Assembly (NCBI GenBank): GCA_015231955.1
Contig: JADGAN010000015.1
Span: forward strand, 1 to 64,000
DNA from: Oligoflexia bacterium
GTDB taxonomy: Bacteria; Bdellovibrionota; Bacteriovoracia; Bacteriovoracales; Bacteriovoracaceae
Direction of reading: 5' to 3'
Length of the DNA stretch: 64,000 nt
The notes beneath the pieces are model-generated. The model was not told the origin of the DNA. It made no database searches and worked only from the letters and a program-made list of their open reading frames with translations. The position numbers were made by a program, and so were the translations under genes. Shown here piece by piece: positions 5,596 through 14,047 of this stretch. The stretch's first letter is position 1, and the number at the start of each line of letters is the position of its first letter.

Positions 5596-6885
5596 TTAAA
5601 ACAATTTTTGGATAATAGTCTGGATAATATTATAACGAAAGAGGTGCCTGTGCCAGTAGCTAAGTGTGATGGCCAGAACGGTGATAATGGAAATTCCGCC
5701 CATGGTAAAGGCGACCTGACCACCCAGGCCTTCTGCAATGGCACCAAAGAGAAAGTTTCCAAAAGGGGTAGATCCCGCAAAAACCAGAGTATAGATGCTC
5801 ATGGCCCGTCCTCGGTACTTGCCTTCAGTGTTGAGAAGCACAATGGTGTTGGCGACGGTTGCAGGCCAAATGGTGGTCATACCGCAAAGGATAAGCATGA
5901 GCATGGTAGAGTGAAAGCTGTTGCTATATCCAAGAGCAATGAGACTAAAAGAGAGCAAGATAGAGTGCAAGATAAGTCCTGTGAGGTTGGCAGGAATGAT
6001 CTTATTGATATGATGGATAGTTAGCGCTCCAACCAGGGAGCCAATGCCTAAGGGAACCCACAGAATGCCGAGATCTTTTTCCGGGAGAAAAAGGACATTT
6101 TTAGTGAAGATGGGAATGAGGATATTAAAGTTGTGGCCAAGAGTTCCTATGATAAAGAGGATGATGATGGTTTTGATGAGGAGAGGATTTTCTGTCAGGT
6201 GTTTGATTCCATCGTTCATATCGGAGAAGATTTTTTTCCAACTAAAGGCAACAGTCACTGTAGCGATAGGAGGAGAGGATCTTTCTTGCAAATGGGGGGC
6301 AACGGTGTGAGCAATTTTAAAGAGCGCAAAAATAAAAGCAATGAAACTTATACTGTTAAAGATAAAGCACCATTTGATCCCAAAGGAGGCGGTAATATAA
6401 CCAGCGAGGATTGGCCCTACGATTCTTGCGAGGTTGAAGATCGTGGTGTTCATGGCAATGGCACTATGGATGTCTTGGCGATCGACAAGATCGGCGAGGT
6501 AGGCCTGGCGTGCAGGAACATCGATGGCGTTGGCAAAACCCATCAGCACTGTCAGCAACAGAATATGCCAGTACTCGATTGTCTCCAAATAGACGAGAGC
6601 AGCAAAGATAATAGAGAGAAACATAGTCACGATCTGAGCGTAGATGATAATAGTTTTCTTGGGAAAATAGTCGATGATGGGGCCGATGAGCAGCGAGAAG
6701 AGAAGAATCGGAATAAATTGAGCGGCACCAAGGATGCCCAATTTCATAGGGGAGTTGGTCATGGTGATCACAAACCATGATTGTGCTGTAAATTGGATCC
6801 ATGAGCCGATCACAGATACCAAAAGACCAGTCCAGTAGTAACAAAAATCTTTACGCTTAAATGCTGCGAGAATGCCACCTATCAT
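5596..6885 (-). CDS. MFS transporter of the MFS_3 (EntS-like) family
   Basis: About 429 residues with 12 predicted membrane helices. The N-terminal region (F-x-YYWTGLLVSVIGSWIQ, then W-FVITMT-S) and the segment DVPARQAYLADLVDR after helix 4 are typical of the MFS_3/TMEM-type drug and siderophore exporters related to EntS. It would export a small molecule across the inner membrane; the substrate is unknown. I chose ATG 6885 because AAGGTGG lies 5 bp upstream; a GTG 9 bp earlier lies inside that ribosome-binding site. It is upstream of and co-directional with the dihydropyrimidinase. Confidence 0.85.
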   Translation of the reverse strand: MIGGILAAFKRKDFCYYWTGLLVSVIGSWIQFTAQSWFVITMTNSPMKLGILGAAQFIPILLFSLLIGPIIDYFPKKTIIIYAQIVTMFLSIIFAALVYLETIEYWHILLLTVLMGFANAIDVPARQAYLADLVDRQDIHSAIAMNTTIFNLARIVGPILAGYITASFGIKWCFIFNSISFIAFIFALFKIAHTVAPHLQERSSPPIATVTVAFSWKKIFSDMNDGIKHLTENPLLIKTIIILFIIGTLGHNFNILIPIFTKNVLFLPEKDLGILWVPLGIGSLVGALTIHHINKIIPANLTGLILHSILLSFSLIALGYSNSFHSTMLMLILCGMTTIWPATVANTIVLLNTEGKYRGRAMSIYTLVFAGSTPFGNFLFGAIAEGLGGQVAFTMGGISIITVLAITLSYWHRHLFRYNIIQTIIQKLF

Positions 6886-7235: not shown

Positions 7236-7542
7236 CTAAAATCCAAATCCATAAGAATACTAACTGCTTTCATTGACAGTAATAAATTTAAACTCCCTAA
7301 ATTTTTTATATTGAGACTTAGCAGAATTTCTGGGCACCAACCTATTTGAAGGAAACAATCGGAATTAAATAATCGCTTGAGTTCGTTGCGTTTGTTTGAA
7401 TTACTTAAAGTCTCAATATGTAACGATGTTACTCTGGTGGTGGAAATTGCGATTGGGATCTGGATTATAAATAGTGATGGAAAGAGGTCAAGACCCTTTC
7501 TCTAATCGTTAAAGATGCATTTTGGAGAGGAGTCAATAGGAT

Positions 7543-8022
7543 ATGAAAAAAAGCAGAATTTTATTACTGTCACTTTTACTGTTTTCGTTCATGCTACCAC
7601 AGTCACAGATTGCTAGAGCGGTGGGTAACGACGAGAAGGCCACCACTTACATTAAGTCGATAGATGGCCCAAAGGAAGTTCCAGTATCGTGGCTTAAAGG
7701 AAAGCGATCAAAGGGGTCTACGTTTGAGAAATTCAGTAGTCGGCCACCAATTTATCTCCCTAGCTCTCCGGAGGAAGCACCGTTATTCCCCATCGCCGGT
7801 AAATCGCTAGACTCGATCTTGTCCTTTCTAAAAGACAGTACGATCAGCTATGAGCTTTGTGATTCAGAACGACTATGCAAAGATGTGGATGAGTGCAAGC
7901 TTTCAAAGATGTCACATCAGCTGCGTGCTGATATTCAAGAGAGAGAGAGCTTTTGCAAATTTTTCCAAAACTATCCCCTCTGGCAAAACTTTATCCGGAT
8001 GTGTATAAACGGATCTTGTTGA
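7543..8022 (+). CDS. Secreted variable protein, N-terminal frame, copy A
   Basis: A 159-residue frame starting with a lipid-free signal peptide (KKSR, hydrophobic stretch, cleavage near ARA, about residue 26). The mature part is unlike any family I recognise. At its end it overlaps a second frame (7953-8750) shifted by -1. The sense continues naturally into that second frame, so the two probably once formed one protein of about 400 residues. The same break is present in copy B (12837-13316). AGGAGTC and a closer AGG precede the ATG. Whether a short secreted protein is still made from this frame is unknown. Confidence 0.6.
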   Translation: MKKSRILLLSLLLFSFMLPQSQIARAVGNDEKATTYIKSIDGPKEVPVSWLKGKRSKGSTFEKFSSRPPIYLPSSPEEAPLFPIAGKSLDSILSFLKDSTISYELCDSERLCKDVDECKLSKMSHQLRADIQERESFCKFFQNYPLWQNFIRMCINGSC

Positions 8023-8750
8023 CGGTAGCGGCGAAGAACAATGACTTAAATTTCTTAAAATACGTCCTCCATAAATATAAATTACAAACCAAGGTATTGA
8101 TGGAGGAGTTTGATCTTCGAAAATACTTAAATAAAAATGAAGATGAGTTGAAATTTCCGTTATCTGCCTCTGATTTTTCTAAACTCGCCGGTGGAAGCAA
8201 GATCTCTATTGTCAATGTCGTGTTGACTTCCCCTGACACTGGAGAGGCAAAGAAGGGCATTCGCTCCTTTCTGGAGCAGAAAGGATTAATCACCGCTGCC
8301 GAGGTGAAAGCGGCGGAAGCACTGGTTGCCACACCACCTGCCCCACTCACAGAGGACGTTGAAACAAGCACTAAAGCGATCTATAAAAAAATCCTCGGTA
8401 CTCATCCAGCTTTAGGAGACAATGCTTACATAGACCCACGCAATTTAGTTTGGGGTGATACGCTTCCGAACAAGATGAAGCAACAAGATGCCGATAAGTA
8501 TTGTTCAGATTTATCAAAACCAGCATTGAATATCGCGTGCCATCTGCCAACTAAAAAAGAGTATAAAGATCTTGCAGCAGATAAAGCTCATGAGAAATTG
8601 CCAAACTTTTCTGGAAAAGGGTTTTGGTCGTCCTCAGTCTATCCTCGTAATCCTATCAACGCGTACATCTTCGACGGCAGCAATGGTGATGTCGACGTCG
8701 GCTATCGTAGCAATGCTCTGTCATTGCGTTGCGTTTGTTTTGGTCGGTAG
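7953..8750 (+). CDS. Variable protein, C-type-lectin-like C-terminal frame, copy A (DGR target)
   Basis: A 265-residue frame in the -1 phase relative to the gene at 7543. Its C-terminal ~110 residues resemble the DUF1566/FGE-type C-type-lectin fold used by DGR target proteins: LVWGD, a DADKYC block, CHLPTKKEY, GFWSSS and a final SLRCVC. The last 36 codons (8640-8747) are hypervariable against copy B. A linker rich in Ala and Pro (about residues 110-125) is 14 residues longer than in copy B. If fused to the upstream frame, the lectin-like end would be displayed outside the cytoplasm. The only upstream start in this frame is a TTG at 7953 or internal GTG/ATG codons, so independent translation is doubtful. 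Confidence 0.65.
   Translation: MQIFPKLSPLAKLYPDVYKRILLTVAAKNNDLNFLKYVLHKYKLQTKVLMEEFDLRKYLNKNEDELKFPLSASDFSKLAGGSKISIVNVVLTSPDTGEAKKGIRSFLEQKGLITAAEVKAAEALVATPPAPLTEDVETSTKAIYKKILGTHPALGDNAYIDPRNLVWGDTLPNKMKQQDADKYCSDLSKPALNIACHLPTKKEYKDLAADKAHEKLPNFSGKGFWSSSVYPRNPINAYIFDGSNGDVDVGYRSNALSLRCVCFGR
8640..8747 (+). other. Variable region of a diversity-generating retroelement, copy A
   Basis: Thirty-six codons just before the stop. Compared with 13892-13999, 25 of 108 bases differ and 12 amino acids change, all between GFWSSSV and the invariant SLRC. About 160 bp immediately upstream and about 30 bp after the stop are identical between copies. At 15 of the 25 differing sites one copy has A, as expected if both arose from adenines in a template. 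No template repeat is visible in the window. Confidence 0.7.
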
Positions 8751-8785
8751 CTGCGAGCGTGGATGATATTGATCATTTTGCTTTT

Positions 8786-8852
8786 GTGCCAGCCGACTTT
8801 TGGGACTCATCATGTGAGCGCACCAAGTCCCAGAAGTGGGCTGGCACTTTTT
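8786..8852 (+). terminator. Strong hairpin terminator after variable gene A
   Basis: GTGCCAGCC-g-ACTTTTGGGACT (8786-8807) pairs with AGTCCCAGAAGT-g-GGCTGGCAC (8826-8847), about 20 bp of stem, followed by TTTTT. It lies 36 bp after the stop codon. The structure is absent after copy B because the repeat ends earlier. Confidence 0.75.
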
Positions 8853-9190
8853 CCCCTTCTGCAGTGGTTGGTGATATTGTTCATGAAGTCTTGAGTAAAG
8901 GCGAAAAAGTTTTTGGGACGCCTTAAAGTAAGAAGTGCCACGCCACTTTTGGAATGCATCTCTCAGCTGCAAGGAGTCTCGGGATCATCGCATTAAGTCG
9001 AGCCGAGAAGTCGATTTTCATAAATGATTTTTATTCAACTTTAAAACCTACTAATTTTTTTTGCGCAATGAGCGAGTAAAGAAAAGCATGCACCTGTGGT
9101 TTCGCACTTGCTGAAAATAGAGGTGCATGTCACTCTTCTCCCTCTTCTCCTCTAGGAAAGCGCAGAGGTCAAAAGCGGGATATGAGAAGG
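8853..9190. other. Non-coding stretch with a small hairpin
   Basis: No gene found. A 9-bp inverted repeat, CATGCACCT (9088-9096) and AGGTGCATG (9121-9129), encloses 24 nt and could form a hairpin. Nothing else recognisable is present. Confidence 0.4.
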
Positions 9191-9226
9191 TTGACTTTCA
9201 TTGAAGTATCGTATATAGTTATACTT
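9191..9226 (+). promoter_or_regulatory. Promoter with overlapping operator for the nucleotidyltransferase module
   Basis: TTGACT (9191-9196), a 17-bp spacer and TATAGT (9214-9219) form a good sigma70-type promoter. An inverted repeat, AAGTAT (9204-9209) and ATACTT (9221-9226), straddles the -10 element, as in self-repressed toxin-antitoxin operons. The Shine-Dalgarno AGGAGGAG follows at once, so the leader would be very short. Confidence 0.6.
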
Positions 9227-9236
9227 AGGAGGAGTA

Positions 9237-9776
9237 ATGAAACCCAAGGAAATAATCGCTGAATTTGACCAATATTTACACCAACGTGGACAACAGCTTA
9301 ATGCCGTTGTTATCGGAGGAGCGGCTTTGGCCCTTCTTGGAATTATTACCCGTGAGACGCAAGATTGTGACATTTTGGATCCAAATATTCCAGAAGATAT
9401 TCAAAATTCAGCAAAAGAGTTTGCCCAAGAACTCTCGAAAAGGGGATGTGACTTAAAAGTTGATTGGCTTAATAATGGGCCGGCCAGTTTGAAAGATGTC
9501 CTGCCACCGGGTTGGCAACTCCGTCTGGAAAAACTCTACTTTGGCAAATCATTGTCTCTTCAATCCCTTAGTAGGAGCGATCTTCTCAAAAGCAAACTTT
9601 TTGCATTTTGTGACAGGGGGCAGGATCTACAAGACTGCATTGCTCTAAAACCTACTAAAGAGGAGCTTCGTGATGCGCTTGAGTGGGTAAAGATGCAAGA
9701 TGCAAACCCTGGATGGCCAGCACATGTTGAAAGTCAATTCATCAAACTTGCAAGGAAACTTGGCCATGGCCTTTAA
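9237..9776 (+). CDS. Nucleotidyltransferase-fold protein (DUF6036-like)
   Basis: A 179-residue protein with the nucleotidyltransferase pattern: VVIGGAALALLG (about 22-33) followed by an acidic motif RETQDCDIL (about 39-47) and a later LLKSKLFAFCDRGQDLQD helix with Asp. This matches DUF6036/AbiEii-like proteins that often act as the toxin or modifying partner in two-gene modules. An AGGAGGAG site is 4 bp from the ATG. The next gene overlaps by 11 bp, so the two are translationally coupled. Self-regulation is suggested by the palindrome over the promoter. Toxin activity is inference. Confidence 0.72.
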   Translation: MKPKEIIAEFDQYLHQRGQQLNAVVIGGAALALLGIITRETQDCDILDPNIPEDIQNSAKEFAQELSKRGCDLKVDWLNNGPASLKDVLPPGWQLRLEKLYFGKSLSLQSLSRSDLLKSKLFAFCDRGQDLQDCIALKPTKEELRDALEWVKMQDANPGWPAHVESQFIKLARKLGHGL

Positions 9777-10467
9777 ACGACTCTTGATCCCAGCTGAATT
9801 TGCAAAAGGAGATAAGCTCACCTCAGATCTGGTCGGGATAGGTTTTCGATTTGCGGCCCCTATGCCAAAAGAAGAACCCAATATTGAAGACACCATAATT
9901 GCTGCTTCTCTCGAAGGTATTGCTAATGATGATTACAGGATGTTATCCCTTTTAGTGGATTGGTTTTCAATCCATGTTGCACGTGTGAATGTCGATAGAT
10001 TAGTCAATGCCGTACAACTTGTTCAAGAAAAAAAAGTTAAAACTTTTTGGGCCTCACTTGCAGAGTGGCAAAAGAAAGATTGGCGGCTGAAAAAATTGCA
10101 AAAAGTGTATACAGGCCCTCGACTTGATTTAATCGGGGAAGGAACTGAATTTCTAATTGAAAGGCAAGGCGAAGATGAGCGTTTTTGTGGTACATTTTTG
10201 CGTATCCCAAATAATCTCTTACGCCACCGACCAAACGATGTCTTAACGCCTGAGGAACTTGCAAGGAGGAGCCTCTCGTATCATTTTAGGATAATGATAG
10301 GCCCTAGTTATCGAGCTGATATGTGGGCCCTCCTCGAAAAAAATTCAGAGCTCACGCCCTCAGAAATTGCCAGACAAAGTTATGGATCTTTTCCAACAGC
10401 GTGGGAAGTTAAGCGTGATTGGTTGCTGCTCCATCAACTGACAACTCGTGAACTACAGGCATCTTAG
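9766..10467 (+). CDS. Partner of the nucleotidyltransferase, unknown family
   Basis: A 233-residue soluble protein starting at an ATG that overlaps the end of the nucleotidyltransferase gene by 11 bp. No family recognised. The middle is rich in basic and aromatic residues (WASLAEWQKKDWRLKKL). The C-terminal part, LTPSEIARQSYGSFPTAWEVKRDW, looks like a winged-helix or helix-turn-helix segment. Gene order and coupling suggest it is the cognate partner, perhaps the antitoxin and repressor binding the operator at 9204-9226. No signal peptide or membrane segment. Confidence 0.6.
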   Translation: MAFKRLLIPAEFAKGDKLTSDLVGIGFRFAAPMPKEEPNIEDTIIAASLEGIANDDYRMLSLLVDWFSIHVARVNVDRLVNAVQLVQEKKVKTFWASLAEWQKKDWRLKKLQKVYTGPRLDLIGEGTEFLIERQGEDERFCGTFLRIPNNLLRHRPNDVLTPEELARRSLSYHFRIMIGPSYRADMWALLEKNSELTPSEIARQSYGSFPTAWEVKRDWLLLHQLTTRELQAS

Positions 10468-10472
10468 GAATT

Positions 10473-10712
10473 TCATAGAGGAAATGCGCTCAACTTTTGT
10501 TCAACTAGGAGACCGTAACATTCCGGGGGCCAAGCCACCTCCTTCTTATTTGCTAGTGGGTACCACTCATCAAATTTATCTCTCAGCTCATTGTTAAGAA
10601 CCTTGGTGCGAGTTTGGAACAGCAGATGTGCTCCTCTCTTTCTCCATCTCATTTGTTGCTTTTTCACGAAGCGCTTGCTGATCACTTGATTCGCTTGGCA
10701 ATTCGTTATCTC
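10473..10712 (-). pseudogene. C-terminal remnant of a transposase
   Basis: On the minus strand NQVISKRFVKKQQMRW, then KRGAHLLFQTRTKVLNNEL and a WYP motif, recall the C-terminal end of insertion-sequence transposases ('K-K-QQMRW-xx-RGAHLLLQxRT-x-VLN'). Only about 80 codons remain and the upstream catalytic part is gone. No terminal repeats could be defined. I do not assign the IS family. Confidence 0.6.
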
Positions 10713-10857
10713 AAGGACGGCAAAATTCCTGCATATACTAGAAAAACTCCAAGTCGACCCAATCTCCTAATTGGGTTCATGGCAGACTGTAACCGCGCAA
10801 GTGGTAATGAAAAGAGTAATGTTGAGTCGAATAACAAACATTTTAAAAATTTATTTT

Positions 10858-11058
10858 ACAAAGTGTTGGCCTATGAATAGAGACAAAGAACTTTGCAATG
10901 TCGAGCTTAAGTGCCCATACAGGCATATTGCCACCTTGGCTTAGCTCTCGGACTTTTTGTTGAAATCGGCGGCAAAAGTTTTGCGCTAATCGGTCTTCGA
11001 ATTGTATTTGAGAGCGGCCCGCTGGACTGTGCAGGCGATAGCGTTTGTAGGTCATCAT
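10858..11058 (-). pseudogene. Reverse-transcriptase fragment 1 (DGR/retron-like)
   Basis: Read on the minus strand the frame ends FQQKVRELSQGGNMPVWALK, then LDIAKFFVSIHRPTL, the reverse-transcriptase block that carries the first catalytic Asp (LDIxKFFxSI). Upstream of FQQKVREL the sequence differs from fragment 2: the CRSGKGTHGAIKYA block is missing and a different stretch (HSPAGRSQIQFEDRLAQNF) is joined. The frame stops soon after. It lies upstream of the truncated repeat copy C, in the opposite orientation. Confidence 0.65.
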
Positions 11059-11189
11059 CAGATCGTGAAAGCTTGGCCATATCTATTTTTTATACTCTTC
11101 ATTGCAATTAAAAGCAAATCACCAAAACATCGATGGTGACGATGTTTACATTGATTGCGATATGGCCGCCGCCGCAGCGGCAGCAGGAA

Positions 11190-11249
11190 AAATCCAAATC
11201 CATAAGAATGCTAATTGCTTTCATTGACAGTAATAAATTTAAACTCCCT
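11190..11249 (+). repeat. Truncated third copy of the cassette leader (copy C)
   Basis: Sixty bases from AAAATCCAAATCC to AAACTCCCT match the first 60 bases of copies A (7238) and B (12533) with two or three changes. Homology stops where the TTTTTTA tandem array begins. As with copy B, a reverse-transcriptase fragment on the minus strand lies just to its left. Confidence 0.8.
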
Positions 11250-11251
11250 CT

Positions 11252-11296
11252 TTTTTTTATTTTTTATTTTTTATTTTTTATTTTTTATTTTTTATT
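11252..11296. repeat. Tandem 7-bp repeat, TTTTTTA x6
   Basis: Six units of TTTTTTA follow one another. The array contains the stop codon of the antitoxin gene (11285), so its length could alter the end of that protein. On the minus strand it reads as A-rich and offers no T-run terminator. Confidence 0.85.
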
Positions 11297-12371: not shown

Positions 12372-12532
12372 AAATTTACAAAGTGTTGGCCTATGAATAG
12401 AGACAAAGAACTTTGCAATATCGAGCTTAAGTGCCCATACAGGCATATTGCCACTTTGACTTAGCTTAGCTCTCGGACTTTTTGTTGAGCATATTTGATA
12501 GCGCCATGAGTGCCTTTTCCTGATCGGCAGGC
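12372..12532 (-). pseudogene. Reverse-transcriptase fragment 2 (DGR type), frameshifted
   Basis: On the minus strand CRSGKGTHGAIKYAQQKVRE, then a 5-bp duplication of CTAAG causing a frameshift and stop, then (in another frame) NMPVWALKLDIAKFFVSIHR. The CRxGKGTH motif followed by LKLDIxKFFxSI is characteristic of DGR reverse transcriptases and close relatives. About 50 codons remain. It directly abuts copy B of the cassette. The 3' part is about 90% identical to fragment 1. Confidence 0.75.
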
Positions 12533-12836
12533 AAAATCCAAATCCAGAAGAATGCTAACTGCTTTCATTGATAGTAATAAATTTAAACTCCCTAAATTTT
12601 TTATATTGAGACTTGGCAGAATTTCTGGGCACCAATCTATTTGAAGGAAACAATCGGAATTAAATAATCGCTTGAGTTCGTTGGGTTTGTTTGAATTACG
12701 TAAAGTCTCAATATGTAACGATGTTGCTCTGGTGGTAGAAATTGCGATTGGGATCTGGGTTATAAATAGTGATGGAAAGAGGTCAAGACCCTTTTTCTAA
12801 TCGTTAAAGATGCACTTTGGAGAGAGGCAATAGGAT

Positions 12837-13316
12837 ATGAAAAAAAGCAGAATTTTATTACTGTCACTTTTACTGTTTTCATTCATGCTAGCACAGTCAC
12901 AGATTGCTAGAGCGGTGGGTAACGACGAGAAGGCCACCACTTATATTAAGTCGATAGATGGCCCAAAGGAAGTTCCAGTATCGTGGCTTAAAGGAAAGCG
13001 ATCAAAGGGGTCTACGTTTGAGGAATTCAGTAGTCGACCACCAATTTATCTTCCTAGCTCTCCGGAGGAAGCCCCGTTATTCCCCATCGCCGGTAAATCG
13101 CTAGACTCGATCTTGTCCTTTCTAAAAGACAGTACGATCAGCTATGAGCTTTGTGATTCAGAACGACTATGCAAAGATGTGGATGAGTGCAAGCTTTCAA
13201 AGATGTCACATCAGCTGCGTGCTGATATTCAAGAGAGAGAGAGCTTTTGCAAATTTTTCCAAAACTATCCCCTCTGGCAAAACTTTATCCGGATGTGTAT
13301 AAACGGATCTTGTTGA
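12837..13316 (+). CDS. Secreted variable protein, N-terminal frame, copy B
   Basis: A 159-residue frame, differing from copy A at only two residues (Pro/Ala in the signal peptide, Lys/Glu near residue 66). It has the same signal peptide and the same -1 break into the following frame at about 13247. Most base differences from copy A here are synonymous. It probably encoded the N-terminal half of a longer secreted protein. Confidence 0.6.
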   Translation: MKKSRILLLSLLLFSFMLAQSQIARAVGNDEKATTYIKSIDGPKEVPVSWLKGKRSKGSTFEEFSSRPPIYLPSSPEEAPLFPIAGKSLDSILSFLKDSTISYELCDSERLCKDVDECKLSKMSHQLRADIQERESFCKFFQNYPLWQNFIRMCINGSC

Positions 13317-14002
13317 CGGTAGCGGCGATGAACAATGACTTAAATTTCTTAAAATACATTCTCCATAAATATAAATTACAAACCAAGGTATTGCTAGAGG
13401 AGTTTGACCTTCGAAAATACTTAAATAAAAATGAAGATGAGTTGAAATTTCCGTTATCTGCCTCTGATTTTTCTAAACTCGCCGGTGGAAGCAAGATCTC
13501 TATTATCAATGTCGTGCTGACTTTCCCTGACACTGGAGAGGCAAAGGAGGGCATTCGCCCCTTCCTCGAGCAGCAAGGATTAATCACTCTTGCACCTCTC
13601 ACGGAGGACGTTGAAACAAGCACTAAAGCGATCTATAAAAAAATCCTCGGTACTCATCCAGCTTTAGGAGACAATGCTTACATAGACCCACGCAATTTAG
13701 TTTGGGGTGATAGGCTTCCGAACCTGATGAAACAACAAGATGCCGATAAGTATTGTTCAGATTTATCAAAACCAGCATTGAATATCGCGTGCCATCTGCC
13801 AACTAAAAAAGAGTATAAAGATCTTGCAGCAGATAAAGCTCATGAGAAATTGCCAAACTTTTCTGGAAAAGGGTTTTGGTCGTCCTCAGTCTGTCCTAGT
13901 AATCCTGGCTTCGCATACGACTTCGACGGCAGCCTTGGGTACGTTGACTACGCCAATCGTAGCTTTGCTGGGTCATTGCGTTGTGTTTGTTTTGGTAGGT
14001 AG
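13247..14002 (+). CDS. Variable protein, C-type-lectin-like C-terminal frame, copy B (DGR target)
   Basis: A 251-residue frame homologous to 7953-8750, 14 residues shorter in the Ala/Pro linker. It carries the same DUF1566/FGE-like end (LVWGD, CHLPTKKEY, GFWSSS, SLRCVC) but a different variable segment: Cys, Ser, Gly, Phe, Asp, Leu, Tyr, Tyr, Ala, Asn, Phe and Gly replace Tyr, Arg, Ile, Asn, Ile, Asn, Asp, Val, Gly, Tyr, Asn and Leu of copy A. The stop codon is 46 bp from the end of the convergent MobA-like gene. Confidence 0.65.
   Translation: MQIFPKLSPLAKLYPDVYKRILLTVAAMNNDLNFLKYILHKYKLQTKVLLEEFDLRKYLNKNEDELKFPLSASDFSKLAGGSKISIINVVLTFPDTGEAKEGIRPFLEQQGLITLAPLTEDVETSTKAIYKKILGTHPALGDNAYIDPRNLVWGDRLPNLMKQQDADKYCSDLSKPALNIACHLPTKKEYKDLAADKAHEKLPNFSGKGFWSSSVCPSNPGFAYDFDGSLGYVDYANRSFAGSLRCVCFGR
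13892..13999 (+). other. Variable region of a diversity-generating retroelement, copy B
   Basis: Counterpart of 8640-8747. Of 25 base differences, 20 fall in the 12 changed codons and 5 are silent. Invariant islands (FDGS, RS, SLRC) alternate with changed sites, as in lectin-fold variable regions where scaffold residues are protected and binding-face residues vary. Confidence 0.7.
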
Positions 14003-14047
14003 CTGCGAGCGTGGATGATATTGATCATTTGATTATTTGAGTTCGCT

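Follow-up and report, generated by a model that had tools for sequence, protein, structure and literature searches.

In the diversity-generating retroelement (DGR) of Bordetella phage BPP-1 (Mtd/Avd/TR/Brt; PMC6642488), mutagenic homing is adenine-specific and is directed into a C-terminal variable region (VR). DUF1566 has been described as the commonest Pfam domain among DGR targets (PMC4159848, PMC6642488). Degraded DGRs are also on record. Isolates of Treponema denticola carry remnants of DGR targets without the reverse transcriptase (RT) and the template repeat (TR) (PMC4891356), degraded DGR pieces occur in cyanobacteria (PMC7517822), and in Pseudogulbenkiania NH8B a strongly mutated RT is found near distal targets (PMC3521204).

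The locus described here is in the first 64,000 bp of contig JADGAN010000015.1 (the window) of an Oligoflexia bacterium in the family Bacteriovoracaceae (GCA_015231955.1). It shares the adenine-specific pattern in a C-terminal VR with the BPP-1 DGR, which differs in being phage-borne and intact and in having another target protein. As in T. denticola, targets appear to have outlived the RT and template, and as in the cyanobacteria and Pseudogulbenkiania NH8B, the RT is broken or missing beside DGR target genes. However, NH8B retains another intact RT in its genome, whereas none was found in the assembly that includes the window. Unlike in T. denticola, past activity in the window is backed by the templates of relatives, and two duplicated targets flank RT debris. 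Degraded DGRs are an already known kind, of which the window is a new, well-supported case. We put the probability that the locus is what remains of a two-target DGR, its target genes diversified in the past and the element since decayed, at roughly 87%.

The targets are in a duplication of approximately 1.5 kb (7238–8778 and 12533–14030), and both copies are split into two frames in the plus orientation. In copy A, the first frame (7543–8022), which has a signal-peptide-like N-terminus and is duplicated at 12837–13316 in copy B, is followed by a second frame (7953–8750, open from 7932) that ends in an Lcl_C domain (PF07603, formerly DUF1566; E 1.8e-8). The second frame of copy B (13247–14002) ends in the same domain (E 8e-6). 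While copy A scores 35.1 bits against the Pfam cut-off of 34.9, copy B falls under the curated cut-off at 26.6 bits. The VRs, at 8640–8747 and 13892–13999, are assigned by sequence to the C-terminus of Lcl_C, a C-type-lectin-type domain, in agreement with the DUF1566-type host domain named in the first-pass annotation; a two-row AlphaFold model of the target (pLDDT 41) was too poor for confirming the fold. The targets would provide a variable binding domain, either secreted or on the cell surface. Further Lcl_C domains are present elsewhere in the genome.

Pairwise comparison of the VR copies returned exactly the differences that the first-pass annotation had listed for these coordinates, 25/108 bases and 12/36 residues. 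Outside the VR, only 44 of 1390 aligned bases differ (Fisher P = 6e-13). The alignment also bore out the identical flanks and the invariant islands FDGS, RS and SLRC within the VR: the nearest upstream difference is at 8480, leaving 160 bp identical in both copies ahead of the first VR change (8641), and approximately 30 bp 3' of the VR are the same in both. Both VR copies have the invariant 3' end TCATTGCGTTGYGTTTGTTTTGG, which may correspond to an IMH/IMH* end. A strong hairpin followed by a T run (8786–8847, plus strand; DNA fold z -4.6) begins 36 bp past the copy A stop and is probably a terminator. Copy B is not followed by such a hairpin, its flank diverging from approximately 14030.

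The assembly is a draft with an estimated contamination of 3%, and strain variants could in principle have been mis-assembled as two copies. However, copies A and B have different flanks, lie 5.3 kb apart on a 106 kb contig, and are separated outside the VR by the 44 substitutions and a 42 bp indel, making such an artefact exceedingly improbable. Strain variants would, moreover, show the DGR pattern too.

Intact DGRs were found in three related genomes: G148 (contig C3) and G026 (contig C59), which are from the same family, and G131, which is from the same phylum and has two loci (a and b; contigs C26 and C36). Each has an Lcl_C/DUF1566 target, a bAvd, and a TR beside the RT. Their RTs carry GIPIGN(L)xSQ (GIPIGNxxSQFGAN) and YMDD motifs, and the Avd proteins of G131 and G148 match PF22296 (bAvd), with a homologue in G026. 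Their targets have the same type of C-terminal domain as those in the window; that of G131 locus a is under the Pfam threshold, yet its VR aligns. The TR/VR pair of G148 has 19 differences at A and none elsewhere over 111 nt, and the G131 pairs have 22 at A and two others over 111 nt (locus b) and 15 at A and one other over 90 nt (locus a). From G026, the target end of which is interrupted by two N bases, the template alone was used. The gene order in G131 is target, avd and TR, then a convergent RT on the opposite strand. The window shares the target domain type, a gapless VR/TR alignment and the RT clade with these DGRs, and the convergent RT orientation with G131, but where they have a complete RT, TR and Avd it has only VRs and RT pieces. 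Another DGR of the same phylum (G177, contig C46; TR 2774–2853, VR 2010–2089) has a different target type, with the VR ending a protein that has a pilin-like N-terminus (GFSLIEIMIAAGLMG).

It had been noted from the window alone that one copy has A at 15 of the 25 differing VR sites. While the count is correct, a random pair of differing bases includes A half the time, so the count by itself is no evidence for a DGR and a template is needed. With the genome's own template absent from the assembly, VR differences were scored on the columns of homologous TRs from other genomes. Both window VRs can be aligned gaplessly with the G026 TR. Of the 36 A columns in this template, 21 differ between the copies, against 3 of the 75 non-A columns (1/25 C, 1/21 G and 1/29 T; Fisher P 2.9e-10). 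Divergence is therefore 58% in A columns and 4.0% in non-A columns, the latter close to the 3.2% background of the duplication, and the 3 of 24 differences in aligned columns that fall off the template A columns are expected from background drift. All 12 amino-acid differences are on the 14 AAN codons of the G026 TR (hypergeometric P 4.9e-8). The base test gave P values of 1.3e-8, 8e-5 and 8e-6 with the templates of G148, G131 locus a and G131 locus b, respectively, though the templates are not fully independent. A-bearing templates thus do exist in related genomes, and the differences concentrate on their A columns rather than being spread equally over the bases, which upholds the DGR signature claimed in the first-pass annotation. 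Comparison with these homologous templates thus shows a DGR origin of both variable ends.

Such ends could otherwise stem from ordinary diversifying selection or from conversion by a paralogous Lcl_C gene, in which case the RT pieces would be there by coincidence. Other Lcl_C domains are indeed available in the genome, and gene conversion could yield a sharp-edged divergent block. However, a donor gene was not found in the genome, and the differences follow template adenines (P 3e-10) while non-A columns stay at background. A negative control was provided by contig C55, where a single ORF (672–1994) contains two tandem Lcl_C domains. Their ends have diverged in the ordinary way, with no adenine pattern (P 0.3), and they were rejected as DGR targets. 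We consider selection or conversion very unlikely. A third VR-like Lcl_C end, in a 69-aa open frame (5924–6109, minus strand), is on the 6 kb contig C104, and its differences from copy A likewise prefer template A columns (P 1.6e-5). A nearby gene on C104 resembles, as judged by eye, AbiEii nucleotidyltransferases.

The DGR-type RT fragments that the first-pass annotation had placed between the copies are two minus-strand pieces, identified by profile matches and similarity to intact DGR RTs. In the first (10840–11085), RT model columns 15–52 are joined to columns 127–168, and the second (12372–12538) is frame-shifted and covers columns 111–164. Over the matched stretches the pieces are 63–70% identical to the intact G131 DGR RT, and they match DGR RTs better than any intron RT. 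A PHROGs RT family, which is broad, also matches an RT piece (E 8e-8). The minus-strand RT pieces downstream of target A are consistent with the G131 order, and inverted gene orientations have been reported in other DGRs (PMC3521204). Part of both RT fragments is covered by a direct repeat of approximately 110 bp (10855–10963 and 12375–12488, 94% identical), and a 75–81 bp sequence upstream of both targets (7238–7312 and 12533–12607) has a third copy at 11189–11263 on the plus strand. As these repeats lie near the targets and across the RT pieces, tandem duplication and deletion would be a likely route of decay.

The interval expected for avd and TR (about 8750–10846) is occupied by a DUF6036 nucleotidyltransferase gene and an overlapping partner ORF (9237–10467), which are toxin-antitoxin-like; no remnant of a TR or Avd was found within it. 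Among the RT debris, an HTH antitoxin-like gene (PF01381; 11288–11956, minus strand) adjoins a small gene with a weak YafQ toxin match, and the two are probably a toxin-antitoxin pair.

The first-pass annotation had also predicted a template repeat in this genome, and suggested looking for an intact DGR RT. Neither was recovered from the assembly, which is 95% complete in 114 contigs. For the TR, a whole-genome DNA search, a masked pattern search allowing three mismatches, a template-peptide search, and adenine-tolerant scans covering the window and selected other stretches recovered nothing beyond the two VRs and more divergent Lcl_C domains. A profile of intact DGR RTs matched nothing in the assembly better than the fragments; other RT (PF00078) matches in the genome were mostly group II intron-like and were rejected. 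No DGR-type Avd was found in the assembly, where the G148 Avd query gave no match. Weak PF22296 matches on contigs C72, C64 and C59 of this genome were set aside because the proteins are S23-like, of the four-helix type, and have no neighbouring RT. These three proteins are nearly identical and two adjoin a similar transposase-like ORF, which is suggestive of a mobile element with an S23 protein as cargo. Searches of genome-contig and viral-contig collections found no relatives of the target, and the RT fragment had none in the genome contigs. The RT-related viral loci are ordinary DGRs, with TR/VR pairs unlike the window VRs.

Because the assembly contains neither a template nor an intact RT, the DGR seems to have degraded and no longer to be live. 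Rewriting of both VRs could still continue in trans if an intact RT and template were encoded in sequence that the assembly lacks. The draft state of the assembly leaves room for them, other DGRs are known to have targets at a distance (PMC3521204, PMC4891356), and VR-like ends are also found near contig ends on C55 and C104. However, several searches of the assembly yielded no RT, TR or DGR-type Avd, and at the locus itself the RT is present as broken pieces. Activity in trans therefore appears unlikely, and we favour a decayed element.

Under decay, an ancestral cassette, with target, avd and TR converging on an opposite-strand RT as in G131, would have been duplicated. As long as the RT and TR persisted, reverse transcription of TR RNA, error-prone at adenines, would have yielded cDNA that replaced the last approximately 108 bp of the Lcl_C domain in each copy, presumably independently. 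The avd/TR part may have been lost later, and the RT gene reduced to two pieces, though the order of these events could differ. Both VRs would then be frozen records of past mutagenic homing.

The frame break in both target copies falls exactly at an (AG)6 run (7938–7949 and 13232–13243), and these two were the sole AG/CT runs of at least six units in the 337 kb of the genome examined. The 42 bp indel between the copies preserves the second frame. Either an inactivating change common to both copies or a phase-variable switch could explain the break. It is a speculative idea, and on balance a doubtful one, that the targets combine DGR rewriting of the binding end with an on/off frame switch at (AG)6, such that optimised ends are kept or silenced without the retroelement. 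Among the papers searched, none combines the terms diversity-generating retroelement, phase variation and slipped-strand.

The locus indicates that a genome which has lost template and RT can still be tested for former DGR activity: its VRs suffice if their differences are compared with the adenine columns of a template from a relative. DGR loss thereby becomes measurable in genomes missed by RT- or TR-based searches, and DUF1566-type DGRs, both live and dead, are documented in this bacterial family.
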